Source of the DNA: Oceaniovalibus sp. ACAM 378
GTDB taxonomy: Bacteria; Pseudomonadota; Alphaproteobacteria; Rhodobacterales; Rhodobacteraceae
DNA: 64,000 bases
Assembly (NCBI RefSeq): GCF_008085915.1
Contig: NZ_VSJK01000007.1
Location: 186,001-250,000 of the forward strand
Reading direction: 5' to 3'
The notes under the pieces are model-generated. The model saw only the letters and a list, made by a program, of their open reading frames with translations, made no database searches and was not told where the DNA came from. The first letter of the stretch is position 1. Each line of letters begins with the position of its first letter. A program made the translations under genes and the position numbers. This document shows positions 8,670 through 24,653 of this stretch, piece after piece.

Positions 8670-9080
8670 TCAGATCAAACGGGTGAGAAGTGCCACCAAT
8701 GTGGCGCTGTCTTCTGGCGACAGGGCGGAAAGAGTTTCGCCGGTGATCGTTTCGCCCGCTTCATGTAGATTAGAGATCATCGCCTGACTCTGCGCAGTCA
8801 GGTTGATCCGGTTGCGGCGTTTGTCGCCGGGATAGGCGGAAAGCGCGACCAGCCCCTTGGCGCGCAACCGGTCGACCACACCCTTGATTGTGGCCACGTC
8901 CATGGCCGTTGCCCGGCCCAGTTCGTTTTGGGACAGCGGACCCAGTTGATCAAGCCGGACCAACGCCGAAAACTGTGTCGGCGTCAGGCCGGCGGGGGCA
9001 TGCGCCTGAAAGATCAGCCCATGGCGCTGGCTGACCTGACGCAGGATGTAACCCACCTGTTCGTCAAGGACATAGGTCAT
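8670..9080 (-). CDS. MarR-family transcriptional regulator
   Basis: A 136-residue winged-helix regulator of the MarR family. The recognition region is LTPTQFSALVRLDQLGPLSQNELGRATAMDVATIKGVVDRLRAKGLV at about residues 32-80 (only positions given for the longer part), followed by the wing DKRRNRINLT. It is the last gene of the seven-gene operon starting at 16098 and its ATG overlaps the upstream stop by 4 bases. MarR proteins usually bind the aromatic substrate or product of the genes they control; NicR of Pseudomonas putida, which responds to 6-hydroxynicotinate, is also a MarR protein. I infer it represses its own operon and perhaps the 18468 operon. Confidence 0.88.
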   Translation of the reverse strand: MTYVLDEQVGYILRQVSQRHGLIFQAHAPAGLTPTQFSALVRLDQLGPLSQNELGRATAMDVATIKGVVDRLRAKGLVALSAYPGDKRRNRINLTAQSQAMISNLHEAGETITGETLSALSPEDSATLVALLTRLI

Positions 9081-9661
9081 CGCAACCCGTCCTTTCCCAC
9101 CGCCTCGGCGTGGGTCAGTCCGCCAACGCGCGGCAGGGGACGCCCGCTGTCGGTGATGGCGACGGCGACCATGATCTCGTTGGCGCGGGGGGCATCGTTC
9201 AGCCGCACCTCGACCCCGTCGAAATGGCTGCGGACATAGGCGGCGTCCTTGTGGCCCAGAGGCACGTCCAGATCCTGACCCGGGCCGCCCATTTTCTTTG
9301 ATGACGGGACCAGCGCGGCGCCGCTTTCCACCGCTTCGCGCAGGGGCGCGCCGAGTTTCGGATGCAGGATTGCGGCGGCATGTTCCAATTCGCCGTTTTC
9401 CCCAACCATCGCCGCCTTGCCATAGCTTTCGGCCTGTCCCGGCTCTATGCGCAGAGCGGCGACACAACGTGCGCCCAGCAGCGCGCCCAGTTCGGCGCCG
9501 ATATCCATCAGCGGCGTAAGGTCTTCGACATAGCGCCCGGCAAAGGGATTGGCGATAACGGCCACTGCCACCGCCTTGCGTGTTGGCGGTTGGATCGGGC
9601 GGCCCATTTCGGTGTGTGTCTCTTCGACCCAGACGGCGATCTTGCGGATTTGCGCGCTCAT
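9077..9661 (-). CDS. DUF1185 (AA_synth) family protein, copy B
   Basis: A 194-residue protein of Pfam PF06684, annotated in databases as amino acid synthesis family protein. Family landmarks: VIANPFAGRYVEDL, a GELEHAA segment, VPSSKKMGGPG, and YVRSHFDGVEVRLNDAPRA, ending in GKDGLR. It has exactly the same length as the neighbouring copy at 9658 and shares all these blocks, so the two are tandem paralogues that could form a mixed oligomer. As I recall, crystal structures of the family show a variant of the Bacillus chorismate mutase fold; no reaction is established. Both ends overlap neighbours by 4 bases. Confidence 0.85.
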   Translation of the reverse strand: MSAQIRKIAVWVEETHTEMGRPIQPPTRKAVAVAVIANPFAGRYVEDLTPLMDIGAELGALLGARCVAALRIEPGQAESYGKAAMVGENGELEHAAAILHPKLGAPLREAVESGAALVPSSKKMGGPGQDLDVPLGHKDAAYVRSHFDGVEVRLNDAPRANEIMVAVAITDSGRPLPRVGGLTHAEAVGKDGLR

Positions 9662-10242
9662 CGCAGCCCGTCCTTTCCGGTGATATCGACGGCCGACAGA
9701 CCTCCGGATCGGCTGTGGATACGCGCACCTGTGGTCATCACCAGAACATACATCAACTCGGCGGCGCGGGGCGAATCGTTCAACCCCACCTCCATGCTGT
9801 CGAAATGGCTGCGCACATAGGAGGCGTCGATATGGGTCACCGGCACGTCGAGCCGCGTGCCAACTCCACCGACTTTTTTCGTTGAAGGCACAATGGCCAT
9901 GGGTGCGCCCAGAACCTCGCGCATCGAGTATCCGCCCGGGGCGTGCCAAAGCGCGCCATGCTCCAACTCGCCCTCGCTGCCGATGATCGCGCCTTTGCCA
10001 TAGCCCTCGATCGCCTTTGGATCGCCGCCAAGATCGGCCAGAAGGCGGCGTGCCATGGACAGGCCGAGCGGTTTCAAATCCTCCATGAACGGCTGGATAT
10101 CGGCGACATAACGACCCGCAAAGGGGTTGGCGATCACTGCCATCACTGCGCCACGTTTCAGCGGGCGGTCGGGGGCGGGGCCAAATTCGTGGAACACCTC
10201 CTCGATCTGGGTGGCGATCTTTCTGATCCTGACCTCAGGCAT
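9658..10242 (-). CDS. DUF1185 (AA_synth) family protein, copy A
   Basis: A 194-residue PF06684 protein. It has VIANPFAGRYVADIQP, GELEHGALWHAPGG, VPSTKKVGGVG and LDVPVTHIDASYVRSHFD, matching copy B block for block, and also ends in GKDGLR. The start MPEVRIRKI at 10242 overlaps the UPF0280 gene by 8 bases. The duplication is old, because the two copies differ at many positions outside these blocks. Its constant position beside the ring reductase suggests a step acting on the reduced or opened ring, but that is inference. Confidence 0.85.
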   Translation of the reverse strand: MPEVRIRKIATQIEEVFHEFGPAPDRPLKRGAVMAVIANPFAGRYVADIQPFMEDLKPLGLSMARRLLADLGGDPKAIEGYGKGAIIGSEGELEHGALWHAPGGYSMREVLGAPMAIVPSTKKVGGVGTRLDVPVTHIDASYVRSHFDSMEVGLNDSPRAAELMYVLVMTTGARIHSRSGGLSAVDITGKDGLR

Positions 10243-11068
10243 GGGCGGGTTCCTTTCTTGGAATGGTATCGATGTGACCGACAATCTGTTGGGTGTTCGC
10301 CAGAACCAGAGCCGCCGCTGTGATCAGCCCGCTTGCCCGCAGAGATTCGGCAAATGCGGCGCCACGGGTCAGGGCGGTACGGGTCTCGGCGGGGGTCAGC
10401 GGGCCGACATGGGTGACAACCGGGCGGGTGCCCAGATCACTGTCGTCGCGGAGCGTGTTGGCCGGAGCGCGGCGAATGGCAGGATGGCCCGGCAGATCGA
10501 CGGCATTGGCAATCAGCGTCGCAGCGGCGTCGGCCATGGCGGCCGTGGGTGCCAGCACCGTCACCTGATCGGCAATGCCCATGGTCAGGCTGCGCCCGCC
10601 CCGCCCGCTGGTGGCGATGCCGCGCACGGGATCGTCGGCACTGATCGCGATCCGCCCCAGATCGCGACGATCCAGACCGGCCCGCGCCAGACGAAACGAC
10701 TCTCCCTGCGTCAGATGCAGTGCAATGTCGCCGCCGTTGTTCACATAGGCCCGTTGCAATCCGCAGATCGGAACCATCGCCGCCAACACCGCATCGGCCA
10801 CCGCCCCCGCCACCGCCGCCATGGGCGTGACGAAACACTCAAACGGCTGAACCGCCTGCCACATGGCGCGGGCAATCCCGCCCCGGGGCTGCGGCCCGTG
10901 GTCGCGGCGCAGCAGGGGCAGTTCAGCGACCAGTTCATCCAGCACGGTGGAAAACCGCGCCGTGGCTGCGATAAACGCCCGTTCGCGCGCGCCATCCGCG
11001 CCGATCACCAGATCGATCGGTCCGTGTTGCAGATGCAGCCGGTCACCGGGCAGGCGCGCGGCGATCAC
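10235..11068 (-). CDS. UPF0280 family protein (ApbE-like fold), candidate flavin transferase
   Basis: A 277-residue UPF0280 protein. The start is GTG at 11068, which overlaps the upstream stop as GTGA; residues upstream in frame have no family character. Two blocks match the ApbE FAD:protein FMN transferase superfamily: YVNNGGDIAL at about 108-117 (the ApbE N-x-GG-[DE]-I turn) and GIATSGRGGR at about 150-159 followed by ADQVTVLAPTAAMADAAAT, as in ApbE ATSG...ADALAT. UPF0280 itself has no proven activity. Its position next to a homologue of a reductase known to carry covalent flavin makes flavin attachment an attractive role. Confidence 0.82.
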   Translation of the reverse strand: MIAARLPGDRLHLQHGPIDLVIGADGARERAFIAATARFSTVLDELVAELPLLRRDHGPQPRGGIARAMWQAVQPFECFVTPMAAVAGAVADAVLAAMVPICGLQRAYVNNGGDIALHLTQGESFRLARAGLDRRDLGRIAISADDPVRGIATSGRGGRSLTMGIADQVTVLAPTAAMADAAATLIANAVDLPGHPAIRRAPANTLRDDSDLGTRPVVTHVGPLTPAETRTALTRGAAFAESLRASGLITAAALVLANTQQIVGHIDTIPRKEPAHA

Positions 11069-12507
11069 TTTGCACCCCGGGGCAAGCGGCGGATGGCGGG
11101 GGTCAGCACGTCCTCTACCGGGCGGATACGGTCCATATGGCCGCCAAGTGCTGCGTAATCTTCGCGCCGCATGGTGAACTCGATGGGGGCGACCAGCGCG
11201 GGCGTGGGCACGTATCCGAAGGCATTGCTTGGCATTCGTGTCACATCGGCCATCACCGTAATGCCACCGCCGGGCCAGACATAGGCCTCGGCCCCGCCGA
11301 CGGTCACGCGGGTCAGCGCGTCCTTGACGCTGCGGGTCAGGCCGACGGGGTTTTCGGTGACCCCGGCGCGCAATGACCCTCCCGCGCCGCCCATGAACAG
11401 CACGGAACACAGCGACGGTTCGCAGTTGTCGGCGATCCGTTCGGCAATGGCTCGCAGCGGGGCGGGGATTTCGGCGGGTTGTGGTGACAGATCGCCGTCC
11501 AGCACGAAATACGCCGATTGCTCACCGGTGGTGGAAATCATCAGCAACCGCAGCCCCGGCCATGCGATTTTGGGATCAACCGATTTGATGATCGTCAGCG
11601 GATCCGTCACATCGGTTCCGCCCCAGCCGGTGCCGGGATTGGCCACCTGAAAATACCGCCCCGGGGTCGAGCGCCGCCCGGTCACCCGGATACCTGCCGG
11701 GCGCATAGCGAGCTGTTTGCCCGCCTCATGTTCCGTCAGCACGCCGGTGATGTGATCGTCGACCACGACCACCTCGTCCACATGAGCGACCCATTGCTGT
11801 GCGAACATGCCGATGGCAGCCGATCCGCAGCCAACACGCATCAATTTCTCTGGCACACCGTCGATCACCGGGGCCCGCCCGGCCTGTACAATCAGAGTCA
11901 CGCCATCGTCGACGGTCATTTCGACAGCTTCGCAGTTGCACAGCGCCAGCAGCGCGTCACAGGTCACGCGGCCTTCTTTTTTCGTGCCCCCGGTCAAATG
12001 CTCGACGCCGCCAAGGCTCAGCATTTTCGAGCCGTATTCCCCGGTCATCACATGGCCGATCGCCTCGCCATCCACCCGGACAATCGCGCGCTCCTCGCCG
12101 ATGTGGCGGTCGGTGTCGATCTTCACTTTGACGCCGCAGTAGGAAAATATCCCCTCGGTCACGACGGTGATCATATCGGCATCGCCAACCATCTGGGACA
12201 CGATGAACGGCGCCGGTTTATAGTCGGGATAGGTGGTGCCCGCCCCGATGGCGGTTACGAAAGGCCCGATCCGAATGGGGGCATCCACAATAGGCCGGTC
12301 GCCCTGCACAATGTCGCCGTCCCATTCGCGGCCCAGAAACGGCACCATCGGCCCGCCACCCTCAATCACCGTCAAAGGGTCCAGACGCACCAAGACACCT
12401 CCATGGTTGGCATAGCGGTCACAGGCCCCGGCCCGACCGTCAGAGATGAAACACATCACCGGGCAAGCATCGCAGCGGATCTTTTCGTCACCGGTTTTCG
12501 CGCTCAT
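11065..12507 (-). CDS. 6-hydroxynicotinate reductase-like iron-sulfur flavoprotein
   Basis: A 480-residue protein of the family annotated as 6-hydroxynicotinate reductase (Hnr). Near the N-terminus C12, C15, C19 and C29 form a CX2CX3CX9C iron-sulfur motif (CDACPVMC then GAC); more cysteines follow in LLALCNCEAVEM and RVGCGSAAIG. In Eubacterium barkeri Hnr reduces 6-hydroxynicotinate to 1,4,5,6-tetrahydro-6-oxonicotinate and has a covalent flavin and iron-sulfur clusters. Here it sits between the hydroxylase and UPF0280, with 4-base overlaps on both sides. The exact ring substrate is inferred, not shown. Confidence 0.82.
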   Translation of the reverse strand: MSAKTGDEKIRCDACPVMCFISDGRAGACDRYANHGGVLVRLDPLTVIEGGGPMVPFLGREWDGDIVQGDRPIVDAPIRIGPFVTAIGAGTTYPDYKPAPFIVSQMVGDADMITVVTEGIFSYCGVKVKIDTDRHIGEERAIVRVDGEAIGHVMTGEYGSKMLSLGGVEHLTGGTKKEGRVTCDALLALCNCEAVEMTVDDGVTLIVQAGRAPVIDGVPEKLMRVGCGSAAIGMFAQQWVAHVDEVVVVDDHITGVLTEHEAGKQLAMRPAGIRVTGRRSTPGRYFQVANPGTGWGGTDVTDPLTIIKSVDPKIAWPGLRLLMISTTGEQSAYFVLDGDLSPQPAEIPAPLRAIAERIADNCEPSLCSVLFMGGAGGSLRAGVTENPVGLTRSVKDALTRVTVGGAEAYVWPGGGITVMADVTRMPSNAFGYVPTPALVAPIEFTMRREDYAALGGHMDRIRPVEDVLTPAIRRLPRGAK

Positions 12508-15230
12508 GTCCTGTCCTTCAGCAAGGTATGCAAACGCGACGGAGTGACGGGCACGGCCCGAACAGACACGCCCGTCGCGTGCCGGATCGCGTTAAGCAGT
12601 GCAGGCGCCGTGGGGATCAGCACGTGTTCGCCCAGCCCCTTGGCACCGTATGGACCATGGGCGTCGGGGTCTTCGACGATCAGGGTTTCGATCGGCGGAA
12701 TGTCTCCGATAGTGGGGATCAGATAGTCGTGCAGGTTTTCGGTGCGACCGGGCAAATACTCCTCCATCAAGGCCATCCCAAGCCCCTGCGCGATGCCGCC
12801 CTGCACCTGACCCTCGACCAGCAGGGGGTTGATCGCCTGCCCCACATCATGGGCGGCGGTGAATCGCAGCGGTTTCACACAGCCCAGCGCCAGATCAACC
12901 TCGACCACGGCCAGATGCGCGGCATAGCCGAACTGTGCATAGGGGACGCCCTGCCCGTTCGCATCCAGAGGGCGCGTCGGCGGGTCATAGGTTTCGCAGG
13001 CGGCGAAGACATATCCGTCCCCGTCCGCAGGCAGTTGGTCCAGCGCCAGGTCGTGCCGTTCCGCCCCGTGGGTGACGGTGAGCGTGGCCCCTTCAAGCGC
13101 AATCGTGGCGGTCTCGGGCGCGTTGCAGCGTTGCAGGATCGACGCGCGCAAGGCCTCGCCGGACAGTTTTGCCGCCGCGCCGGTAACGAAGGTCTGGCGC
13201 GATGCGCTGGTTTTGCCCGCGTCCGGCGTCACATCGGTATCGCCGCCAATCAGGGTCAGCGCCGACAGCGGCACGCCCAGCGCTTGCGCGAAGATCTGCG
13301 CGATCACCGTATTCGCGCCTTGGCCGATGTCCATCGCGCCCTGATGCAGCATCACCGCGCCATCGGTCCGGATTCCCGCCTTGATCGTCGACGGGTTGGG
13401 CAATGACGTGTTGCCACAGCCGTACCATCCGCCGGCAATCCCGACGCCGCGTTTGACATGCTCTGATCCGGCATTGAACGCTGCGCATTCCGCCTTGGCA
13501 ATCTCCCACGCCGGTTGCAGCGCGGCGAAACAGGCGCCGATCCCGACTCCCTGCGCGAATACCTGACCACAGACCGTGGGCACACCGTTGGCCAGCGCAT
13601 TTTTCATCCGAAAGGCCAATGGGTCCATGCCCAGTTTCAGCGCGAGATCGTCGAACAGGCATTCCTGCGCGATGGCCGATTGCGGTACGCCAAAGCCACG
13701 AAACGCACCCGACGGCGGGCAATGGGTGTGGATACCGCGGGCAACGGCGCGGTAATCGGCGATACGGTACGGCCCCGAGGCATGTACCGGCACCCGGTTC
13801 GCCACAGTTGGCCCCCAGCTTGCATAGGCGCCAGTGTTGAAATCGCCCGCAAACGTCATGCCCGACAGGGTGCCGTCGGCCATCGCGCCGATCCTGACCC
13901 GCAGGTCCGATGGATGCCGCTTGGTCGTCGATTGCATGGATTCGCTACGGGAATAAGTCAGGCGCACTGGCCTGCCGGTCTTGATCGCCGCCAAAGCAAG
14001 GATCGGCTGCACCGAGAGATCCAGTTTTGCGCCGAACCCGCCGCCCACTGCGGTCGGCACGATCCGCACACGGTCGGCAGACCAGCCGAGAATTTCGGCA
14101 ATGCCGTCGCGGTCCATCACTGGTGCCTGCGTGCAGGCGTGAATTTCAATCCGATCCCCGACCATCCGGGCAAATCCTGCTTCGGGTTCGATATAAGCGT
14201 GTTCGACAAACCCGCTGGAAAACCGCCCCTCGACCGTCACATCCGCCCGCGCCAGCGCCGCTTCGGCGTCGCCGCATTGCACGAACCCCTTGGTCATCAC
14301 ATTGCCCGCGCGGTCCGGGTGCAGGAGCGGCGCATCTTGAGCCAGCGCCTGTGGAACTGTCTGAACCGCTGGCAAAGGCTCCCATGTCACGGGAAAATCC
14401 GCCGGGTCGAACACGGCCAACACTTCGGCGTCGCCCACCACCGCCGCCACGGCCTCACCCCGGAACCGCGCTTCGCGTTCGGCAAAGACCGGTTGGTCGG
14501 CAAAGGCGGGAATGACACCAAAGACGTTGCGCCCGGTCACGTCAGCCGCGCTGAGCACTGCCGCTATTCCGGGCCGCGCGGCGTAGGCGTCCAGATCGCC
14601 AAGAGTAAAGGCGGCGCGCGGATGGGGCGAACGGATCACCCGGATCACCAGCGCGCCCTCGGGTGCCACATCATCGCCAAACCGCTCAGACCCGTCGACC
14701 TTGGCCGCGCCATCAATCCGCACCACCGCATCGCCCACAGCCCCCGCCCCGTGCAGCGCCGCAGGACGCCCGATCACCGCATCGACGATCTTGCGATACC
14801 CGGTACAACGGCACAGCACGCCTGACAGCGCATCCATCACCTGAACCTCACTCGGGCCCGGAACATCACGCAGCAGCGCGATGGCCGACACCAACATGCC
14901 CGGCGTACAGATGCCGCATTGCGCCGCCTGATGATCCTGAAACCGCTGTTGCAGCGCGACCATGGCCGGGTCGTCGTTCAGCCCGCGCAGGGTTTCGACC
15001 GACCGCCCCGCTGCCTGTTGAACCGGCATAAGACAGGCACAGACCGGCGCACCATCGACCAATACGGTGCAGGCGCCGCAATCCCCGGCATTGCAGCCCA
15101 CTTTGACGTCGCGCGCACCGCAACGCTCACGCAGCGCAGCAGACAGGCGTTCGCCGACCCGGGGCGACAGGGTGACGGGTGTGCCGTTCAGCATCAGGCC
15201 GATGGTGGTATCCGCGCTGCGCTTATCCAT
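12504..15230 (-). CDS. Molybdenum hydroxylase, fused 2Fe-2S and Mo-cofactor subunit (xanthine dehydrogenase family)
   Basis: A 908-residue fusion. Residues 1-155 are the small iron-sulfur subunit: first 2Fe-2S site C46, C51, C54, C64 (VGCNAGDCGACTVL) and second site C105, C108, C140, C142 (CGIC and CRC). The rest is the molybdopterin subunit, with AVGGGFGAKLDLS, PPSGAFRGFGVPQ and a C-terminal GAKGLGEHVL bearing the catalytic Glu. Enzymes of this family hydroxylate N-heterocycles with water; nicotinate dehydrogenase is one member. FAD is supplied by the adjacent subunit, whose gene overlaps by 8 bases. Iron-sulfur/Mo fusion without FAD is less usual than separate subunits. Confidence 0.9.
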   Translation of the reverse strand: MDKRSADTTIGLMLNGTPVTLSPRVGERLSAALRERCGARDVKVGCNAGDCGACTVLVDGAPVCACLMPVQQAAGRSVETLRGLNDDPAMVALQQRFQDHQAAQCGICTPGMLVSAIALLRDVPGPSEVQVMDALSGVLCRCTGYRKIVDAVIGRPAALHGAGAVGDAVVRIDGAAKVDGSERFGDDVAPEGALVIRVIRSPHPRAAFTLGDLDAYAARPGIAAVLSAADVTGRNVFGVIPAFADQPVFAEREARFRGEAVAAVVGDAEVLAVFDPADFPVTWEPLPAVQTVPQALAQDAPLLHPDRAGNVMTKGFVQCGDAEAALARADVTVEGRFSSGFVEHAYIEPEAGFARMVGDRIEIHACTQAPVMDRDGIAEILGWSADRVRIVPTAVGGGFGAKLDLSVQPILALAAIKTGRPVRLTYSRSESMQSTTKRHPSDLRVRIGAMADGTLSGMTFAGDFNTGAYASWGPTVANRVPVHASGPYRIADYRAVARGIHTHCPPSGAFRGFGVPQSAIAQECLFDDLALKLGMDPLAFRMKNALANGVPTVCGQVFAQGVGIGACFAALQPAWEIAKAECAAFNAGSEHVKRGVGIAGGWYGCGNTSLPNPSTIKAGIRTDGAVMLHQGAMDIGQGANTVIAQIFAQALGVPLSALTLIGGDTDVTPDAGKTSASRQTFVTGAAAKLSGEALRASILQRCNAPETATIALEGATLTVTHGAERHDLALDQLPADGDGYVFAACETYDPPTRPLDANGQGVPYAQFGYAAHLAVVEVDLALGCVKPLRFTAAHDVGQAINPLLVEGQVQGGIAQGLGMALMEEYLPGRTENLHDYLIPTIGDIPPIETLIVEDPDAHGPYGAKGLGEHVLIPTAPALLNAIRHATGVSVRAVPVTPSRLHTLLKDRT

Positions 15231-16098
15231 CGGCGGCCCTCCTTACGGCGCGGTGAATCAACTCGGCCACCGCCGCCCTGCGATAGCCTGCCGTGCCGCG
15301 CACATCATCGATGGGTGACAGAGACGCCAGATGTTCCGGAGTGATCACCGGCAACGCGTCGGGCCTGCATCCGACCAGAGCGGACTCGAGCAGCGGCAGA
15401 CGCTGTGCCACGGGCGATGCGGCACCGACAGCGATACGCGCCTGAGCAATCCAGGGGCCGTCCATCACCACCACCGCGGAAGCCATGACAATGGAGATCA
15501 CCAGATACCGGCGACTGCCCAGTTTGACAAATGAGGCGCCGGCCCCCTCGGGCAGATCGGGAACATGAATCGCCGTGAGCAGCTCAGCGGGGGCCAGCGC
15601 CGTCTTGCGCACGCCAAGCAGGAAATCGGCCAAAGCCATCTGCCGCACGCCCGCCACGCTGCTCAGTTCGACCGTCGCATTCAGCGCCAGCAGTGGCGGC
15701 ACCCCATCGGCGGCGGGCGAGGCGTTGCACAGGTTGCCCGCCACAGTGCCCGCGTTCTGGATCTGCACCGATCCAACCTTGCGCGCGGCCGCCTTCAGCC
15801 CGTCGAAACCGGCGGGCAACGCCGCGCTCATAACATCGCTCCAGGTCGCAGCACCACCGATCCGCCAGCCCGCGCCGTGGCGCGCAATACCGCGCATTTC
15901 GGCCACACGGCTGACATCCACCAGATCGGCGGGGGCTGGCAATTCGCCCAGCGCAGGAAACAAATCGGTACCACCCGCCACGATCCGCGCGCCGGTTGCC
16001 TGCCCCAGCGCGGTCAGCGCATCGGCCAGAGTCTCTGCTGCATGGTAGCCCAGGGTATGCCCCCTTTGCGGTGTCGGCCGGAGACGTCGTTCGTACAC
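15223..16098 (-). CDS. Molybdenum hydroxylase FAD-binding (medium) subunit
   Basis: A 291-residue FAD subunit of the CoxM/NdhF type. VAGGTDLFPALGE at about 40-53 and QNAGTVAGNLCNASPAADG at about 113-131 are the two FAD pyrophosphate-binding loops. It passes electrons from the iron-sulfur clusters of the fused subunit to an acceptor. It heads the seven-gene operon. The most upstream start with a promoter in front is GTG at 16098, lying only about 3 bases from the predicted -10 box, so either the mRNA is leaderless or translation begins slightly downstream (AAAGGGGG lies around residue 12). Confidence 0.87.
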   Translation of the reverse strand: MYERRLRPTPQRGHTLGYHAAETLADALTALGQATGARIVAGGTDLFPALGELPAPADLVDVSRVAEMRGIARHGAGWRIGGAATWSDVMSAALPAGFDGLKAAARKVGSVQIQNAGTVAGNLCNASPAADGVPPLLALNATVELSSVAGVRQMALADFLLGVRKTALAPAELLTAIHVPDLPEGAGASFVKLGSRRYLVISIVMASAVVVMDGPWIAQARIAVGAASPVAQRLPLLESALVGCRPDALPVITPEHLASLSPIDDVRGTAGYRRAAVAELIHRAVRRAADG

Positions 16099-16100
16099 TA

Positions 16101-16129
16101 ATCAAATGCGCGGACGGTTCCCGTGTCAA
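16101..16129 (-). promoter_or_regulatory. Sigma-70-type promoter of the hydroxylase operon
   Basis: On the minus strand TTGACA (16129-16124, perfect -35) is followed after exactly 17 bases by TTTGAT (16106-16101, four of six matches to TATAAT). It occupies the 53-base gap between the PCuAC-like gene and the FAD subunit gene. The predicted transcription start falls at about 16094-16096, at or inside the GTG codon. Confidence 0.55.
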
Positions 16130-16151
16130 TGGTTCTGACGGCTTCCGACGA

Positions 16152-16934
16152 TCACGGCACCACAATCTGCACCGTCGCTGTGACCGGCGTGTCGCCCACC
16201 ACATAGGCCCGATGGTCGTTGGTGTTCAGCGTCACCTCGACCTGATGTTCGCCCGGGGGCAGCGCACCGATCACCGCGCCCGGCGTATACATCCGCTGTA
16301 ACTTGACCCCGTTCAGATACAGATGGCCATGACCATAGCCCGGAACATGGCCGATCCCATCCACCGGCTCGGTGAAGTGGAAATCCTTCGTCGCCACCGT
16401 CACCCGCCACCCGTTGCCCGACGGCACCACGTTCAGCGTCATCGCCGGGGCCGGTTCCCCCTCGCCCACACGGCAGATCCCCCCGAGCGACAACAGGCCC
16501 AGCGCCGCCGCTTCGCCCACCTGAACCGGGTCGGACAGAATCGCCCGTGTCGCGATGCGCCCGCCGCTGGCAAGGGACAGCGTGACCGGCACCACCGCGC
16601 CGTGGCGCAATCCGGGGTCCAGCCCGGTCATTCGCAGATGCGCGCCATCCACGGCCAGAATCGCGGTGCCCGGCCCGGGAAGCGTGATGTCGGGCGGACC
16701 GATAACCGATATTTGTCCGGCCAGCGGCGATTGCGCGCCAATAACCCGGTCCGGCCCGCCGCTGTTAGTCAGTGTCACGAACAGCCGCAGCGCGCCCGGT
16801 TCGCCCTCAATCGGCACGGCAACCGCCTGATCGGCGCGCACCTGCATTGGCGCGGGACGCAGGGCGAGAAACCCGGCGCCAGCCAGAACGACGCCCAGTG
16901 TCAGAAAAATCGCGAATATGCGGCGCAGGTTCAT
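16152..16934 (-). CDS. Periplasmic/lipid-anchored protein with degenerate PCu(A)C copper-chaperone domain
   Basis: A 260-residue exported protein with an N-terminal membrane anchor or signal (FAIFLTLGVVLAGAGFLAL). Residues of about 40-145 follow the PCu(A)C pattern (LRLFVTLTNSGGPDRVIGAQSPLAG, then VDGAHLRMTGLDPGLRHGAVVPVTLSL), but the usual His and MxM copper ligands after the SPLA segment are missing; only HLRM remains. The C-terminal half has a His-rich block VPGYGHGHLYLNGV and NTNDHRAYV, which could bind a metal. I took the start MNLRRIF at 16934. It is divergent, 34 bases, from the membrane protein at 16969, suggesting a joint function. Confidence 0.65.
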   Translation of the reverse strand: MNLRRIFAIFLTLGVVLAGAGFLALRPAPMQVRADQAVAVPIEGEPGALRLFVTLTNSGGPDRVIGAQSPLAGQISVIGPPDITLPGPGTAILAVDGAHLRMTGLDPGLRHGAVVPVTLSLASGGRIATRAILSDPVQVGEAAALGLLSLGGICRVGEGEPAPAMTLNVVPSGNGWRVTVATKDFHFTEPVDGIGHVPGYGHGHLYLNGVKLQRMYTPGAVIGALPPGEHQVEVTLNTNDHRAYVVGDTPVTATVQIVVP

Positions 16935-16968
16935 TGGCTTACCGGAACTGTTGTGGCTGAGTGGCAGC

Positions 16969-18375
16969 ATGAAAACCGCAGACCGATCCGTCAACCTTGT
17001 CCGAGCGCTTAATCTTGCGTGTATCGCGGGGCTTTCGGCTGGCCCGGCATTGGCCCATCCGGCGCAAGGCGGCTTTGTGCTGTTGCTGCCGACGGGCGTT
17101 TATACCGCCGCAGGAGTCGGTGCCGTCGCGCTCAGCGTTCTTATCGTCGCGCTGGTTCCGCTGCGCGCCCTGGACCGGCTGTTCCCCGTGCCCCCCGCGC
17201 CTAAGGCTCCCGGGCGCGCAGCGACATTCGGCGGAATAGTCGCGTTGATCGCGCTGGCCGGTCTGATCTGGGTGGGATTTTACGGACCGCGCGATCCGCT
17301 GTCCAATCTGCTGCCGTTGGCGATCTGGACCCTGTGGTGGATCGGGTTTGTCACGCTTCAGGGCGCTTTGGGCGATCTATGGCGCTGGATCAATCCGTTC
17401 ACCGGGTTTCACCGGACCCTGTGGGGCGATGTGCCGCCGCCCTTGCGCCTGCCCGGTTGGGTCGGGCACTGGCCCGCCGTGATCGGTTTCCTGCTGATCA
17501 TCGGCTTCTCTCTGGCCGATATTGCGCCTGATGATCCGGCGCGGTTGGCGGGGTTTGTCATGGGGTATGCGCTGTTCACGCTGGCCGCGATGGCGCTGTT
17601 TGGTCGGGAGTGGCTGATGCGGGGCGAGTGTTTTACGCTGCTGCTGACCCTGTTCGCCCGGCTCGCGCCGTTTCAAGCTGGACGGATCGGCATGCCCGGG
17701 CGCGGCGCGTTGTCGTTGCCCATCGACCTGTCGCTGGCGGTTTTCATCCTGTCCCTGCTGGCCGCAGGCAGTTTTGACGGCCTGAACGACACGTTCTGGT
17801 GGATGGCGCGGATCGGGATCAATCCGCTGGACTTTCCCGGGCGCTCAGCGGTCGTCACTCCCACCACATTGGGCTTGATCGGCGCTGTCGCGCTGTTGAT
17901 CGCCACCTTCGCGCTGGCGGTGCTGGCGGGATGGCTGCTGTTGCGCGCCTTTGCCCCCGCTGGGCCGCTGCCGCCGCTGAAACAGGCATTCTGCCGGTTG
18001 TCCCTGTCGGTGCTGCCCATCGCATTCGGCTATCACGTCGCGCATTTTCTGACGTCGTTTCTGGTCAACGTGCAATATTCTGTCGCCGCGCTGACCGATC
18101 CTCTGGCCAATGGGGCCGACCTGCTGAATCTCGGGCAGTTCTATGTGACCACGGGGTTTTTCAACACCCGCGCCACGGTGCAGGCGATCTGGCTGGCACA
18201 GGCGGGGGCGATCGTGATGGCCCATATCACAGGCGTTCTGCTGGCCCATCGGATTGCCGGAGGTCTATTTGGCGGCGGGCGAAGGGCGGTTCTGGGGCAT
18301 TTGCCGCTTGCCCTGTTCATGGTGGCCTATACCTTGTTGGGATTGTGGCTGCTGGCGGCACCGCGCATTGGCTGA
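16969..18375 (+). CDS. Polytopic membrane protein, possibly FedB-like
   Basis: A 468-residue protein with a signal-like N-terminus (IAGLSAGPALAHPAQ) and about eleven hydrophobic segments. The mature N-terminus begins with a His (AHPAQGGF), as in several copper-handling membrane proteins. Proteins like this from alphaproteobacteria are often labelled fenitrothion hydrolase FedB, a label I regard as weak evidence for activity. Conserved-looking polar pieces in membrane segments are LWWIGFVTLQGALGDLW and AFGYHVAHFLTSF, with two His. The divergent PCuAC-like partner suggests metal or copper handling. Function not recognised with certainty. Confidence 0.6.
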   Translation: MKTADRSVNLVRALNLACIAGLSAGPALAHPAQGGFVLLLPTGVYTAAGVGAVALSVLIVALVPLRALDRLFPVPPAPKAPGRAATFGGIVALIALAGLIWVGFYGPRDPLSNLLPLAIWTLWWIGFVTLQGALGDLWRWINPFTGFHRTLWGDVPPPLRLPGWVGHWPAVIGFLLIIGFSLADIAPDDPARLAGFVMGYALFTLAAMALFGREWLMRGECFTLLLTLFARLAPFQAGRIGMPGRGALSLPIDLSLAVFILSLLAAGSFDGLNDTFWWMARIGINPLDFPGRSAVVTPTTLGLIGAVALLIATFALAVLAGWLLLRAFAPAGPLPPLKQAFCRLSLSVLPIAFGYHVAHFLTSFLVNVQYSVAALTDPLANGADLLNLGQFYVTTGFFNTRATVQAIWLAQAGAIVMAHITGVLLAHRIAGGLFGGGRRAVLGHLPLALFMVAYTLLGLWLLAAPRIG

Positions 18376-18467
18376 CACCGAATGGCACAAAAAAAACTGG
18401 ACAGATCATTGGCACACATACAACCATGCCCCATCGCCCCGATCAGAGGGCGGAGCACAGGAGGTTC

Positions 18468-19766
18468 ATGATGAATCGGAAGACCCTACTTACTCCCGAC
18501 TATTCCCGGCGCGGTGCGCTGAAAACGCTGGGCCTTGGTGCCGGAGCGCTGGCCGCGACCACGGCGATGCCCGGCTTTGTTCAGGCGCAAAGCAGCGCGC
18601 CGATCCGCATCGGATTTCAGGTGCACCGCACGGGTATCGGCGCCTCCTATGGCCGCTGGTATGATCGTACATCGCAGGCGGCGGTGAAACGGATCAATGA
18701 CGCGGGCGGGATCAACGGACGGATGGTCGAATTGGTCGCCGAAGATGACGGGACCGACCCGAAACGCGGCGCCGAGGTGATCGAGAAATTCGCCACACAA
18801 TCCAACTGTGACATCGCGTTCGGCACGTTGTTTTCCCATGTGGTGATCGGATCGGCCCCGCGGGCGGGCGAATTGAAACTGCCATACTTTGTGGTCTCCG
18901 AGGGGCATCATGTGGCCTCGGGGATGCTGAATCGCTATACCCTCCAGCCCGGCATCACCGATGTGAAAAGTCAGGTTCAGGCGATGGCCCCCTTCGTGGC
19001 GGAAAATCTGGGGAAAAAGGTCTGCATGATCTTCCCCGACTTCGCCTTCGGCCATGACCACCGCGATTATTTCGCCAAGGCGTTCGAGGCGCAGGGCGGC
19101 ACGGTTAATGCGCTGATCGCCATTCCACCGACCGAAACCAGCTTTACCAAATACTTCCCGCAGATCCCCCGCGATACCGAGGTGATCTATCACGTGATGA
19201 CCGGCCCCGCGGTTCTGACCTTCGTGAAAGAACTGGGTGAATTCTTTGGTCCCTCGCGCCCCGAGCTGTTCGGCTATATCGACAGTCTGGAGGCCGTGGA
19301 TATGGCCTCACCCGGTCTCGAATTTCTTGAGGGTTCCTATATGTGGGAAGGCAATCCGCGTTATGCTCAGGCCGACCAGACCGAGTATGACAAGGCCTAC
19401 CGCGAAGCGGTCGGCGTGGACGACAACGGCGCCTCGGTTTCCGATGCACGGGATGTCAGCACCTATGCGCATATGTTCGGCTGCTGGGAAACGCTGAACG
19501 TCATCAAGGCCGGGATGGAAGCTGCGGATTACCAAGGCCCCCAAGACCGCGCCGCGTTGATCGAGGCGGTCGAAGCAATGAGCGATATGCCCGCCGGAGC
19601 GGACCACCCACAGGGCGCCAAAGTGTTCAACGGCAAGACGCATCAGGTGTTTGGCCACCAGTATATCAGCAAGGTCGAAGATGGCCGGTTGAACGTGGTC
19701 CATACCACCAGCATCGAAGACACGCTGTATGAGGACGAGGTGGATTACACCACGAGGTCGTTCTGA
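18468..19766 (+). CDS. Branched-chain-amino-acid-type ABC transporter substrate-binding protein
   Basis: A 432-residue Leu/Ile/Val-type periplasmic binding protein (Peripla_BP_6). The N-terminus YSRRGALKTLGLGAGALAATTA with twin arginines looks like a Tat signal. The mature start RIGFQVHRTGIGASYG and KRINDAGGINGRMVELV are the typical family blocks. Two adjacent ATG codons (18468 and 18471) follow AGGAGG; the second has better spacing. It is the first gene of an operon running to the enamidase at 24653. By context I infer a nicotinate-like or related aromatic acid as ligand rather than an amino acid. Confidence 0.88.
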   Translation: MMNRKTLLTPDYSRRGALKTLGLGAGALAATTAMPGFVQAQSSAPIRIGFQVHRTGIGASYGRWYDRTSQAAVKRINDAGGINGRMVELVAEDDGTDPKRGAEVIEKFATQSNCDIAFGTLFSHVVIGSAPRAGELKLPYFVVSEGHHVASGMLNRYTLQPGITDVKSQVQAMAPFVAENLGKKVCMIFPDFAFGHDHRDYFAKAFEAQGGTVNALIAIPPTETSFTKYFPQIPRDTEVIYHVMTGPAVLTFVKELGEFFGPSRPELFGYIDSLEAVDMASPGLEFLEGSYMWEGNPRYAQADQTEYDKAYREAVGVDDNGASVSDARDVSTYAHMFGCWETLNVIKAGMEAADYQGPQDRAALIEAVEAMSDMPAGADHPQGAKVFNGKTHQVFGHQYISKVEDGRLNVVHTTSIEDTLYEDEVDYTTRSF

Positions 19767-19794
19767 TGCGGGCTATTCTGAAGGAGCCGTGCTG

Positions 19795-20199
19795 ATGGCG
19801 AACAATGTCACTCCGTTCCTGACCTTTACCGGTCAGGGGCGCGATGCGCTGGAGCTTTACGCAGCAGTGTTTCCAAACGCCGAGGTGGAACAGCGAACCG
19901 AATTCGGCCCCGGAGAAGACGGTGTCGAGGGCACCCTGCGACAGGCTGTGCTGAAGATCGGCAAGGGGCGTGTCCGGCTTATCGACACACCGCACCGCAC
20001 CGGGTTTCATTTTTCCTCGGCCATGTCGCTGTTCGTTGACTGTGACAGCGCGCAGGATGTGGATACCATCGCCGCCGCCCTGTCGGAGGGCGGTGAAACC
20101 CTGATGCCCGCCGACACCTATGACTTTGCCGAACGGTTCGCCTGGGTCGCCGACCCGTTTGGCGTCAACTGGCAGTTGTCCTATGGCGCGCGGACCTGA
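19795..20199 (+). CDS. VOC/PhnB-like protein
   Basis: A 134-residue protein of the vicinal oxygen chelate superfamily, PhnB/3-demethylubiquinone-methyltransferase-like branch: VTPFLTFTGQGRDALELYAAVFPNA at the start (positions 5-29) and ERFAWVADPFGVNWQL at the end. AAGGAG lies 8 bases before the ATG. It is placed between the binding-protein gene and the first permease gene (3-base gap), so it is part of the transport operon. The family includes lyases, dioxygenases and isomerases and many members of unknown activity; I cannot assign a reaction. Confidence 0.8.
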   Translation: MANNVTPFLTFTGQGRDALELYAAVFPNAEVEQRTEFGPGEDGVEGTLRQAVLKIGKGRVRLIDTPHRTGFHFSSAMSLFVDCDSAQDVDTIAAALSEGGETLMPADTYDFAERFAWVADPFGVNWQLSYGART

Positions 20200-20202
20200 C
20201 AA

Positions 20203-21129
20203 GTGGATTTCGGCCCGCATCTGATGCTTGCCATGCTGGAAGGCGCGGTCACGGCGGCAATCCTTGCGCTGACCGCCATGGGGCTGTCCGTGGTGTTTGG
20301 CGTGATGCGTGTGGTCAATGTGGCGCACGGCGAATTCTATATGCTCGGGGCGGTTATCGCATGGTTCGTCGCCAGCACCCTTGGCACCCATCCGGCGGTT
20401 GGGTTTGTCGCGGCACTGGTGATCGCGCCGCTGCTGGTCGGCGCGCTGGCCGCGCTGATTGATATCACTGTCCTGCAACGGATCGGCTATGACCCCGAGC
20501 GTACGATCGTCGCCACCATCGGCCTGCTGTATATCCTGCAACAGGGCACGCTGATGACCTTTGGCCCCGATGCCCGTCCCGTCGCGCCGCCGTTCAACAC
20601 CCGCCTTGCCCTGCCCTTTGTCGAATGGGGTGAAAACGGGCTGGCGCTGTATTGGCCATGGGGGCTGTCGATCACATCCTACAAACTGTTCGTCACCGCT
20701 GCTGCGGCGGTGATCCTGATTGCGCTGTGGCTGTTCATGACCCGCACCCGCGCCGGGCTGATCATGCGCGCCACGCAACAGGACAGTGCCATGGCCCGCG
20801 CCTTTGGGATTCCGGTGGCCAAGGTCTATGCGCTGGTCTTTGGGCTTGGCGCGGCTTTGGCGGCGATGGGGGCGGTTCTGGTGGTGCCGATCCAGCAGGC
20901 GCATTACCTGATGGGGGGCGATCCGCTGCTTTTGTCGTTCATCGTGGTGATCATCGGCGGCCTCGGCTCACTTCCCGGAACGGTGATCGCCGCCCTACTG
21001 ATCGGGATGAGCGATGGCGTGATCTCGGTCTTCTTCTCGCCGACACTGGCGAAAATCCTCGCGACACTGGCGGTTGCCATGGTTTTGGTGTTCCGCCCGC
21101 AAGGGTTGCTGGGGAAAAAGCCGCAGTGA
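20203..21129 (+). CDS. ABC transporter permease, LivH type
   Basis: A 308-residue inner-membrane permease of the LivH branch with about eight hydrophobic segments. Typical blocks are LSVVFGVMRVVNVAHGEFYMLGA near residue 28 and the EAA-like ATQQDSAMARAFGIPVAKVY at about 190-209. The start is GTG at 20203, three bases after the VOC stop. Its stop overlaps the next permease start (TGATG). With LivM, LivG and LivF it forms a complete importer. Confidence 0.92.
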   Translation: MDFGPHLMLAMLEGAVTAAILALTAMGLSVVFGVMRVVNVAHGEFYMLGAVIAWFVASTLGTHPAVGFVAALVIAPLLVGALAALIDITVLQRIGYDPERTIVATIGLLYILQQGTLMTFGPDARPVAPPFNTRLALPFVEWGENGLALYWPWGLSITSYKLFVTAAAAVILIALWLFMTRTRAGLIMRATQQDSAMARAFGIPVAKVYALVFGLGAALAAMGAVLVVPIQQAHYLMGGDPLLLSFIVVIIGGLGSLPGTVIAALLIGMSDGVISVFFSPTLAKILATLAVAMVLVFRPQGLLGKKPQ

Positions 21130-22064
21130 TGAACCGCCCGCTCGCCCTGCATCTGGTCGTGATTGCGGCACTGGCGGCGGCATTCTTTGTGCTGCCGGAC
21201 TATCACTCGGGCAATCTGGCGCGGATCATGGTGCTGGCGGTCTATGCCATGGGGTACAATCTGGCGTTCGGATACACTGGGTTGCTGTCACTGGGGCATG
21301 CGCTGTTCTTTGCGGCGGGGATGTACGGGCTGGCGCTGTCGATGCAGCACCTGTCACTTACCGCCATCCCGGCCCTGATGGTTGCGCTGATCGCCTCGGC
21401 GCTGGTGGCGGGGATCACCGGCGCACTGGCGCTGCGCACCCGGGGCGTGGCCTTTATGATCGTCACGCTGATGTTCGCGCAGGCGGGATATCTGACCGCG
21501 CTGTATTTCGTGCAATACACCCGGGGAGACGAAGGCTTTGTCCTGCCCCAGGCGGTGCGGCAAATCGCAGGGGTCGATCTGTCATCCGCTATGGGGCGCT
21601 ATTTCGCCGCGCTGATCCTGTTCTCCGTGACGCTGTTGATCATCGGCGCCCTTGTCCGCGCGCCGTTCGGACGCACCCTGATCGCGATCCGCGAGAACGA
21701 GGCACGGGCGACCATGCTCGGCTATGATGTGCAGCGGCGCAAATGGCTGGCGCTGGTGGCATCAGGCACGATTTCGGGCATGGCGGGGGCGGCGTACGCG
21801 CTGTTGTTCGGCTATGCCGGAGCCTCTTTCGCCGCTGTGCCCTATTCGATCTTTCCCCTGCTTTATGTGCTGCTGGGCGGTGCTGGCACGACGCTGGGCC
21901 CGCTGGTCGGGGCGGTGTTCATGTTCTATCTGATTGACCTGTCCAGCGGCGTGACCGACGCCTATATGCTGGTCGCCGGGGTGGTTCTGGTGCTGCTGAC
22001 GCTGTTCCTGCCCCAGGGTCTGCTCGGCACGCTCAGGAAACGGTGGGTGCCATGGCTACCGTGA
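21129..22064 (+). CDS. ABC transporter permease, LivM type
   Basis: A 311-residue LivM-type permease. YNLAFGYTGLLSLGHALFF at about 43-61 is the diagnostic LivM block, and AIRENEARATMLGYDVQRRK is the ATPase-docking loop. The ATG shares a base with the upstream stop codon and the gene's 3' end overlaps the first ATPase gene by 13 bases. It partners the LivH-type permease to form the membrane channel. Confidence 0.92.
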   Translation: MNRPLALHLVVIAALAAAFFVLPDYHSGNLARIMVLAVYAMGYNLAFGYTGLLSLGHALFFAAGMYGLALSMQHLSLTAIPALMVALIASALVAGITGALALRTRGVAFMIVTLMFAQAGYLTALYFVQYTRGDEGFVLPQAVRQIAGVDLSSAMGRYFAALILFSVTLLIIGALVRAPFGRTLIAIRENEARATMLGYDVQRRKWLALVASGTISGMAGAAYALLFGYAGASFAAVPYSIFPLLYVLLGGAGTTLGPLVGAVFMFYLIDLSSGVTDAYMLVAGVVLVLLTLFLPQGLLGTLRKRWVPWLP

Positions 22065-22759
22065 TCCTCGAAACCCGCGGCCTGACGAAAACCTATGCCG
22101 GGGTGCAGGCAAATACTGACATTGATTTCGACCTGCCCGAGGGTCAGATCCGCGCGCTGATCGGCCCGAACGGTGCGGGCAAGACCACTTTCGTCGGCAT
22201 GTTGTGCGGCCGCATCCCAGTCACACGCGGCAAGGTGATCTTCGACGGGCGCGACATCTCTGGCCTGCCGGCGCACAAACGCATCACCCTTGGCATCGCC
22301 TATACGTTTCAGATCACATCGGTTTTCGCCGGGCTGAGCGTGCACGAGAACATCGCGCTGGCCGCCCGCCGTGCCGGGGGCAATGCCGCCAGAGTGACTG
22401 AAACGCTGGAACGTGTCGGTCTGGCCGACCGGGCCGATCAGACGGCGGGCGATCTGTCCTATGGTCATCAGCGAATCCTTGAAATCGGCATGGGGCTGGC
22501 CCAATCGCCGCGCCTGTTCATCCTCGACGAACCGACGCAGGGGTTGGCGGAATCCGAGGTTGCGGCCTTCAAGACCCTGATCACCGGGCTGAAGAACACC
22601 ACGATCCTGCTGATCGAACACAACATGTCCGTGGTCATGGAAACCGCCGATTACATCACGGTGCTGGACCAGGGCATGACACTGGCCGAAGGCACCCCCG
22701 ACGCGATCCGCGCCAACCGGGCGGTGCGGGCTGCCTATCTGGGAACCGCCGATGCTTGA
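22052..22759 (+). CDS. ABC transporter ATP-binding protein, LivG type
   Basis: A 235-residue ABC ATPase of the LivG branch: Walker A GPNGAGKT at residues 38-45, signature LSYGHQRILEIGMGL, Walker B LFILDEPTQG, and the switch His in IEHNMSVV. ATG 22052 is used; a GTG nine bases upstream is possible. It overlaps both neighbours (13 and 8 bases). It energises the importer together with the LivF-type ATPase. Confidence 0.92.
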   Translation: MATVILETRGLTKTYAGVQANTDIDFDLPEGQIRALIGPNGAGKTTFVGMLCGRIPVTRGKVIFDGRDISGLPAHKRITLGIAYTFQITSVFAGLSVHENIALAARRAGGNAARVTETLERVGLADRADQTAGDLSYGHQRILEIGMGLAQSPRLFILDEPTQGLAESEVAAFKTLITGLKNTTILLIEHNMSVVMETADYITVLDQGMTLAEGTPDAIRANRAVRAAYLGTADA

Positions 22760-23447
22760 GATCGCGGATATCCACGCCGCCCATGGCCGGGTTCCCACGC
22801 TGACCGGGGTATCACTGAGGGCAAGGGCCGGGGAAATCACCTGCCTGCTGGGGCGCAACGGCGCGGGCAAGACCACAGTGATGCGCTGTATCATGGGGCT
22901 GCTGCCGATCACGGCGGGGGCGATCATGCTGGACGGCGAGGCTCTGCACACCCTGCCCACCGAACAGATCGCGCGACGGCGCGTCGGCTATATCCCGCAG
23001 GGCCGCCGGTTGTTCGCCGAATTGAGTGTGGCGGAAAACATCGAAATCGGCCTGATGACCTGTGGCGAGGGCCGGGACACCCGCGACTGGGTGCTCGACA
23101 TATTTCCCCGCCTGCGCGAACGTCTGGGCCAACGCGCGGAAACGCTTTCAGGCGGAGAACAGCAGATGCTTGCGACCGCCCGCGCCCTGTGTCTGCGGCC
23201 CCGCGTCCTTTTGCTGGACGAACCAACCGAAGGCCTGCAACCCAGCATGATCGAACAGATCCGCCAGGTCGTGCTGCGGATGAAAGCCGAAGGCGTCGCG
23301 GTGGTGCTGGTCGAGCAGCGGATGGAGGCGATCCTGTCCATGGCCGATCATGCAGCATTCATCGAAACCGGGCGCAGCATCGAGACGGTTTCCGCCGCCG
23401 CCCTGCGCGCCGACCCAACGATCCTCCCCCGCCATCTAGGAGTCTGA
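22752..23447 (+). CDS. ABC transporter ATP-binding protein, LivF type
   Basis: A 231-residue LivF-type ABC ATPase: Walker A GRNGAGKT at 34-41, IPQGRRLFAELSVAENI (the LivF Q-loop block), signature LSGGEQQMLATAR and Walker B VLLLDEPTEG. It starts inside the end of the LivG-type gene and ends three bases before the enamidase ATG, which ties the transporter to the catabolic enzyme. Confidence 0.92.
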   Translation: MLEIADIHAAHGRVPTLTGVSLRARAGEITCLLGRNGAGKTTVMRCIMGLLPITAGAIMLDGEALHTLPTEQIARRRVGYIPQGRRLFAELSVAENIEIGLMTCGEGRDTRDWVLDIFPRLRERLGQRAETLSGGEQQMLATARALCLRPRVLLLDEPTEGLQPSMIEQIRQVVLRMKAEGVAVVLVEQRMEAILSMADHAAFIETGRSIETVSAAALRADPTILPRHLGV

Positions 23448-23450
23448 CCC

Positions 23451-24653
23451 ATGGCCGAAACCGCACCCCCCGCCGCCGGCCCGGAAGATGGCCGCGCAAA
23501 GCTGGTGATCCGCAACATCGGGATGATCTTGTCGGGCAAGATGGAACAGCCGATCCTTGATGCCGACTGTATCATCTGCATCGACGGCAAGATCACCGAA
23601 GTCGGACGCGGAACGGAGATGGATTGCGGCGGCGCGACGACCACGGTCGACGCCATGGGCACCACCCTCGCCCCCGGTCTGATCGACAGTCACGTTCACC
23701 CCGTCGTCGGCGATTACACCCCCCGCCAGCAGCAACTCGGCTGGATCGACTCAACCCTGCACGGCGGAGTGACCACGCTGATTTCGGCCGGAGAGGTGCA
23801 TATGCCCGGCCGGCCAAAAGACATTATCGGACTCAAGGCCATGGCGATCGCGTCGCAGCGCTGGTACGAGAATTTCCGCCCCTCCGGCGTCAAGGTCCAT
23901 GCCGGGGCACCAGTGATCGAACACGGCATGGAAGAGCATGACTTCAAGGAACTGGCCGAGGCGGGTGTCACGCTTTTGGGTGAGATCGGGCTTGGCTCGG
24001 TCAAGGATGGCAAGACCGCGCATCAGATGGTGCAATGGGCGCGCAAATACGGGATTCAAAGCACGATCCACACCGGCGGCCCGTCGATTCCCGGCTCGGG
24101 CCTGATCGACGCCGACATGGTGCTTGAAACCGGAACCGATGTGATCGGCCATATCAACGGCGGTCATTCCGCCCTGCCCGACGACCAGATCATCTGCCTG
24201 TGCGAATCCTGCAAACAGGCGCTCGAAATCGTCCACAACGGCAACGAGCGCGCTGCGCTGCTGACGCTGAACACCGCCCGGGAGTTGGGCAAGATGGATC
24301 AGATCATCCTCGGCACCGACGGCCCGGCAGGGTCGGGGGTGCAACCTCTTGGGATTCTGCGCATGATCGCCATGCTGTCGAGCCTTGGAAACGTCCCGGC
24401 AGAAATCGCCTTCTGCTTTGGCAACGGCAACACCGCGCGGCAGCGAAAGCTCGATACCGGGCTGATCGAAACAGGTTTTTGCGCCGATTTCGTGCTGATG
24501 GATCAGGCGCAGCATTCAGGCGGCAAGACGCTGCTCGAATCGGTGCAACTGGGCAACCTGCCTGGCGTTGGCATGACGATCATCGACGGGCGCGTCACCT
24601 CGCAGCGTTCGCGCAACACACCGCCTGCGGGACGGGTGCCGGTGATCGTCTGA
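23451..24653 (+). CDS. ena: Enamidase-like amidohydrolase (6-oxo-1,4,5,6-tetrahydronicotinate ring opening)
   Basis: A 400-residue amidohydrolase that resembles E. barkeri enamidase along its whole length: GDYTPRQQQLGWIDSTLHGG, ISAGEVHMPGRPKD and the C-terminal SRNTPPAGR are counterparts of that enzyme. Metal ligands are visible: H81 and H83 (HVH), E178, H207 (HTGG), H234 (HINGG) and D290 (GTDGPAG). Enamidase is a bifunctional Fe-Zn enzyme hydrolysing the reduced ring to ammonia and 2-formylglutarate. GGAG precedes the ATG. It is last in the transporter operon. Assignment to exactly this substrate is by similarity and by the reductase gene 11 kb away. Confidence 0.85.
   Translation: MAETAPPAAGPEDGRAKLVIRNIGMILSGKMEQPILDADCIICIDGKITEVGRGTEMDCGGATTTVDAMGTTLAPGLIDSHVHPVVGDYTPRQQQLGWIDSTLHGGVTTLISAGEVHMPGRPKDIIGLKAMAIASQRWYENFRPSGVKVHAGAPVIEHGMEEHDFKELAEAGVTLLGEIGLGSVKDGKTAHQMVQWARKYGIQSTIHTGGPSIPGSGLIDADMVLETGTDVIGHINGGHSALPDDQIICLCESCKQALEIVHNGNERAALLTLNTARELGKMDQIILGTDGPAGSGVQPLGILRMIAMLSSLGNVPAEIAFCFGNGNTARQRKLDTGLIETGFCADFVLMDQAQHSGGKTLLESVQLGNLPGVGMTIIDGRVTSQRSRNTPPAGRVPVIV

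Follow-up and report, generated by a model that had tools for sequence, protein, structure and literature searches.

What are the two divergent gene sets at positions 8670-24653 of a 64,000-nucleotide stretch of the Oceaniovalibus sp. ACAM 378 genome (contig NZ_VSJK01000007.1; the whole stretch is called the window below) for, and what does a protein of the UPF0280 family do among them? The sets are transcribed away from a short gap at ~16.94-16.97 kilobases (kb), taking the inferred gene starts, and at several junctions a gene overlaps the next one by a few bases. In the direction of transcription, the minus-strand set encodes a PCuAC-like protein, the FAD subunit and the fused chain of a molybdenum hydroxylase, a homologue of 6-hydroxynicotinate reductase (Hnr), UPF0280, two DUF1185 proteins (a and b) and a MarR-family regulator. 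The plus-strand set encodes a membrane protein, a substrate-binding protein, a VOC-like protein, two permeases and two ATPases of an ATP-binding cassette (ABC) importer, and an enamidase-like hydrolase. An earlier note on this DNA had proposed a reductive nicotinate-type locus whose pathway or substrate might be new. We find that the locus is one more example of a catabolic cluster already in print rather than a new pathway, and that its very probable task is the breakdown of nicotinate (vitamin B3) by the route described in other bacteria. It offers one strong functional lead, UPF0280 as a maturation factor of Hnr, and its relatives yield one comparative result, the exchange of the ring-opening enzyme. 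The best explanation of the whole, which we regard as highly probable from homology and gene context, is nicotinate uptake and reductive degradation of the Azorhizobium/Bradyrhizobiaceae type, with UPF0280 as a tied partner of Hnr.

Of the three enzyme steps of the proposed route, two are represented by homologues and the hydroxylation by a candidate. The hydrolase (23451..24653, plus strand) shares a 382-residue alignment (E 1.2e-105) with the solved enamidase of Eubacterium barkeri, 2VUN, and an HxH pair, a Glu, two more His and an Asp, which we take to be the metal ligands, are identical at aligned places. The Hnr homologue (11065..12507, minus strand, 480 aa) matches no Pfam or NCBIfam family at E 0.001; its name draws on its conservation and on orthologues at 60-80% identity in 26 plasmid records, where 17 are named 6-hydroxynicotinate reductase, 3 are hypothetical and 6 are unannotated. 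The candidate nicotinate hydroxylase, of the XDH family, consists of a fused 2Fe-2S and molybdopterin subunit (12504..15230, minus strand; MoCoBD_1, MoCoBD_2, Fer2_2 and Fer2) and an FAD subunit (15223..16098, minus strand; FAD_binding_5 and CO_deh_flav_C). Its domains place it in the molybdenum hydroxylase family, and it reaches no NCBIfam cut-off. E. barkeri likewise uses a molybdenum hydroxylase, an Hnr-type reductase and an enamidase (Ndh, Hnr and Ena). By homology, the ABC importer would take up nicotinate or a close relative, the hydroxylase would convert nicotinate to 6-hydroxynicotinate, Hnr would reduce this to 1,4,5,6-tetrahydro-6-oxonicotinate, and the enamidase would open the ring to give 2-formylglutarate and ammonia; the later reactions, probably through glutarate, would be encoded elsewhere.

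A like cluster is already in print. In the available part of PMC3511419 (Fig. 4), a nicotinate cluster is common to Azorhizobium caulinodans ORS571, Bradyrhizobium japonicum, Rhodopseudomonas palustris HaA2 and strain SG-6C; it is described there as encoding steps one to three together with a transporter and proteins of unknown function. According to the same part, SG-6C can live on nicotinate and on 6-hydroxynicotinate as its only source of carbon, and the identity between its Hnr and the E. barkeri enzyme is 42%. The present cluster has an ABC transporter, as does the Azorhizobium/SG-6C kind; it comes from another order, and its gene order and hydroxylase type may differ from the published ones. 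Homology, the published cluster (PMC3511419) and a NicB-type replacement of the hydroxylase in related clusters lend good support to the reductive route of hydroxylase, Hnr and enamidase. The suggested novelty is not supported. Profile searches recovered the named genes at or near where the earlier note had put them, with MarR itself at about 8670-9080 and UPF0280 at about 10235-11068. UPF0280 and the two DUF1185 proteins are indeed built into the locus, and both are also regular members of the relatives' clusters.

To see how far this arrangement extends, we drew on two sets of genomes, together 761 different ones (G000-G760). Among 390 genomes of the order to which the window belongs (Rhodobacterales, judging by its nearest named loci), 98 have Hnr; a draw across the phylum gave 32 of 398. 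The published route is thereby extended to a quarter of the sampled Rhodobacterales genomes, and reductive breakdown of vitamin B3 may be common there. Many of the nearest named loci come from genera known as marine. The gene order MoFAD-MoLS-Hnr-UPF0280-DUF1185 recurs across 80 related loci, kept from 591 confirmed in named genomes. In 74 of the 78 loci that continue for at least 900 bases past Hnr, the next gene downstream is UPF0280, so the arrangement is not due to chance; in the window its GTG start, as assigned, overlaps the TGA stop of Hnr.

The tie also holds at the level of whole genomes. Genomes with an Hnr match and genomes with a UPF0280 match were the same 124 of 761 (lists compared by eye); 123 of these exceed the UPF0280 cut-off, the remaining one being G150, and none of the 637 genomes without Hnr does so. 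All 26 plasmids with Hnr also carry UPF0280. UPF0280 is kept where the hydroxylase is of the NicB type; it follows Hnr, not the hydroxylase type. Through this tie an unassigned subfamily acquires one client on which its function can be tested, and the source of the Hnr flavin may be accounted for.

What UPF0280 might do for Hnr is suggested by its fold. The window protein (10235..11068, minus strand) scores 358.5 bits against NF003322 (cut-off 290) and shows the ApbE fold along its whole chain. Its S157 and D183 are invariant in 47 of 47 rows and were aligned by hhalign with ApbE motifs; we take them to be the counterparts of Ser241 and Asp285 of the ApbE triad, by our own matching of motifs to residue numbers. 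The E. barkeri Hnr reportedly (in 2006 work attributed to Alhapel) has its flavin covalently attached and holds three iron-sulfur clusters. The tie between an ApbE-fold protein and an enzyme with covalent flavin points to a flavin transferase, and UPF0280 most likely would attach the covalent flavin of Hnr in the cytosol; unlike ApbE, Ftp and FmnB, it has no evident hydrophobic N-terminus. We propose tentatively, with somewhat less than even confidence, that NF003322 is a dedicated cytosolic Hnr flavin transferase working without the ApbE catalytic His or target motif, and that HyuAB replaces the enamidase in many genomes. If so, NF003322 would gain its first function and the ApbE fold a second chemistry of flavinylation, and UPF0280 would be the missing gene for producing active Hnr in other hosts. 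The main text of a survey of ApbE-linked systems mentions neither UPF0280 nor COG2122 (PMC8238504).

Several points count against this proposal. The HIIDP loop, which holds the catalytic His257 of ApbE, falls in a gap of the UPF0280 profile alignment (hhalign), and the ApbE target motif D-x-x-[ST]-G-A-[ST] occurs in none of the 53 Hnr rows, so that both the enzyme and its client would differ from the ApbE/Ftp/FmnB systems. The homology of COG2122 to ApbE is said, in the available part of PMC5764234, to stop short of the flavin-binding region. Weak UPF0280 matches below the cut-off occur in the Hnr-free genomes G668 and G739 (E 8e-5 and 4e-4), and a plasmid of Hydrogenophaga sp. BPS33 (L157) has UPF0280 with no Hnr match on the plasmid. 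Finally, linkage in one operon inflates the co-occurrence counts, and unlinked cases are the better evidence. On the L157 plasmid, UPF0280 matches lie at four places in the record; a unit of UPF0280 with Rieske oxygenase and reductase genes, bounded by IS1071, was seen at 1047-22507, with two copies in the stretch viewed.

An alternative role for UPF0280 would be to serve Hnr by delivering sulfur or Fe-S units instead of flavin, as proposed for the archaeal COG2122 protein MA1715. In the available parts of two studies, COG2122 is needed together with DUF39 and a ferredoxin for homocysteine synthesis in Desulfovibrio, and a role in sulfur trafficking is proposed (PMC5764234, PMC12068725); the eight invariant cysteines of the Hnr alignment would suit such a function. 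However, UPF0280 itself has no conserved cysteine: no alignment column has Cys in more than 10 of 47 rows, and two rows lack it altogether. It also retains the full-length ApbE fold with its Ser and Asp motifs. Whereas the COG2122/UPF0280 proteins of methanogens and Desulfovibrio (MA1715; DVU1097, 2O34) act in homocysteine synthesis, the NF003322 subfamily accompanies Hnr and, unlike the DVU1097/MA1715 group, lacks a conserved Cys. We therefore consider sulfur delivery unlikely, at about the level of a one-in-a-few outside chance, and continue with flavin transfer as the preferred role.

The enzymes of the steps before and after Hnr were found to be exchangeable among relatives. At the ring-opening step, 59 loci could be viewed with 5 kb on both sides: 41 have an enamidase (five of the 54 loci in the enamidase count, L098, L130, L136, L142 and L223, have only a 48-52% homologue, whose activity may differ), 8 have HyuA and/or HyuB, none has enamidase with Hyu, and 10 have neither. 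The Hyu proteins of the 8 loci are 61-93% identical to Neorhizobium HyuAB and match Pfam Hydantoinase A and B. Searching whole genomes, we found no enamidase orthologue in 8 of the 9 genomes with linked HyuAB (the 8 loci plus the shorter L118), the other, L131, having a 55% homologue. Six of the 10 loci with neither have an enamidase elsewhere in the genome, and the other four have HyuB at 67-80%, while HyuB reaches at most 44% identity in 17 enamidase genomes (37% in the window genome). A second set of 60 genomes, viewed within ~9.9 kb, gave 13 with enamidase, 19 with Hyu, none with both and 28 with neither. Genome-wide (E up to 1e-30), an enamidase was present in none of the 19 Hyu genomes and in 7 of the 28; among the remaining 21, 10 have HyuAB beyond 9.9 kb and 11 have no assigned ring-opener in stretches of up to ~30 kb where the contig allowed. 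Over both sets, 41 of 42 HyuAB genomes lack an enamidase orthologue and one has a 55% homologue; HyuA/HyuB genes of this kind lie at L155:15647-19437 and L196:15017-18852. The two states changed at least 11 times on the Hnr tree (a single FastTree phylogeny, with 28 stateless rows excluded). In L154, a Sulfitobacter S190 plasmid, an enamidase at 84% stands with a HyuA/HyuB pair at 41-42%, ~9 kb before Hnr, which we read as a paralogue. HyuAB is regarded as an ATP-dependent lactamase, from oxoprolinase and caprolactamase. We read enamidase and HyuAB as two apparently unrelated ways to open the same lactam, and the exchange predicts a second enzyme for this ring-opening step.

The hydroxylase is exchanged as well. 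An XDH-type enzyme is adjacent to Hnr in 67 of the 72 loci with at least 2.5 kb before Hnr (L095 has it slightly further off), and a NicB-type hydroxylase, with molybdopterin and cytochrome c domains and 69-80% identical to Neorhizobium NicB, takes its place in 4. Among 139 loci and the window, 120 are of the XDH type (the window included), 15 of the NicB type and 5 unassigned, with at least three changes on the Hnr tree. That the steps before and after an unchanging Hnr can both be replaced is expected if all variants feed or take the same lactam.

Instead of nicotinate, the substrate might be an N-methyl or halogenated nicotinate or a different pyridine or pyrimidine acid. In favour of this, the XDH-type hydroxylase stays below every NCBIfam cut-off, importers vary between loci (the window's binding protein is matched in 23, at 65-85% identity in 14 and 24-29% in 9), and a Rieske oxygenase in 9 of the 80 loci suggests different entry substrates. 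Yet the similarity of the enamidase to 2VUN, the nicotinate use of SG-6C in the available part of PMC3511419 and the replacement of the XDH type by a NicB-type hydroxylase all point back to nicotinate, and distinct entry compounds could still converge at 6-hydroxynicotinate. We judge a different substrate rather improbable and keep nicotinate as the preferred one. Rieske oxygenase genes near nicotinate clusters were seen at L154:19282-20352 and in L073, L074, L077, L080, L097, L103, L106, L107 and L138, followed in most of these loci by an ABC importer; a VanA_C domain was read in L154 only. The oxygenase is a candidate N-demethylase for trigonelline (N-methylnicotinate).

UPF0280 could also be an operon passenger without any role in Hnr function, given that adjacency in 74 of 78 loci would yield co-occurrence through joint transfer. 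Three lines of evidence speak against it. UPF0280 is present even where it is unlinked: all six genomes examined have it, including those of L103, L112, L120 and L124, where it is not adjacent to Hnr, and in G099 and G106 it lies more than 4 kb away. DUF1185, in the same operon, behaves differently: it is present in 69 of 121 genomes (taken as G000-G120, as inferred from the listing), namely 33 of 35 with Hnr and 36 of 86 without, and is thus absent from two Hnr genomes. In G150, both genes have decayed together: contig 13 (31594-31990) carries adjoining remnants of the two, with no intact copies, and this is the sole Hnr genome of its draw without UPF0280 above the cut-off. A mere passenger is accordingly quite improbable, and UPF0280 as a functional partner of Hnr remains our reading.

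That the cluster operates as the E. barkeri fermentation, with its 2-hydroxymethylglutarate branch, is highly improbable: the first three steps use the same enzyme types, but both MoCoBD domains lie here on a single 908-aa chain instead of the split NdhL/NdhM (PMC10331938, available part), A. caulinodans proceeds via glutarate (PMC3511419, available part, citing Kitts 1992), and the earlier note saw no later fermentation genes in the window, no search aimed at such genes having been made. For the fate of 2-formylglutarate, the Azorhizobium glutarate route seems more likely than the E. barkeri fermentation. This genome has eight class III CoA-transferases; no later enzyme of the route, glutaryl-CoA dehydrogenase included, was recognised by eye beside them, no genome-wide search for that enzyme having been made.

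The importer and the regulator would serve uptake and control. The periplasmic substrate-binding protein (18468..19766; Peripla_BP_6, E 3.3e-49), the LivH-like and LivM-like permeases (20203..21129 and 21132..22064; both PF02653) and the LivG-like and LivF-like ATPases (22043..22759 and 22752..23447; both PF00005), all on the plus strand, form the importer. It is headed by a 485-aa membrane protein (16966..18375, plus strand, start inferred), which matches no Pfam or NCBIfam family and has counterparts in 12 of the 80 loci. The binding-protein gene is separated from the permease genes by a VOC/3-dmu-9_3-mt gene (19795..20199, plus strand; PF06983, E 1.4e-20), present in none of the 80 related loci and doubtful as a part of the pathway. 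The first minus-strand gene (16152..16934, start inferred) encodes the PCuAC-like protein, barely over the cut-off (PF04314, E 3.4e-7) and found in one of the 80 loci (L068). The MarR-family regulator (8670..9080, minus strand; PF01047, E 6.6e-12), with matches in 50 of the 80, is probably a substrate-responsive repressor that would control the gene set. A ferredoxin-NADP-reductase-like gene lies near Hnr in 21 of the 80 loci (for example L155:3846-4682), with no match in the window, and possibly supplies electrons.

The two DUF1185 proteins are probably accessory, because DUF1185 is absent from two Hnr genomes. DUF1185a (9658..10242, minus strand; PF06684, E 5.1e-68), the second paralogue, is nearer to 3BYQ than to 2QTP. 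DUF1185b (9077..9661, minus strand; PF06684, E 5.2e-73) is the orthologue of Ruegeria pomeroyi SPO0826, the protein of structure 2QTP (E 5.6e-103), and the copy in the nicotinate cluster of Ruegeria arenilitoris (L105:12923-13489) matches 2QTP at E 1.1e-108. ABC transporter genes SPO0822-0825 adjoin SPO0826 in the available part of PMC2954203. It is very likely that the 2QTP structure stems from a nicotinate cluster, and a crystallised protein filed under amino-acid metabolism is now placed beside nicotinate genes in a near relative.

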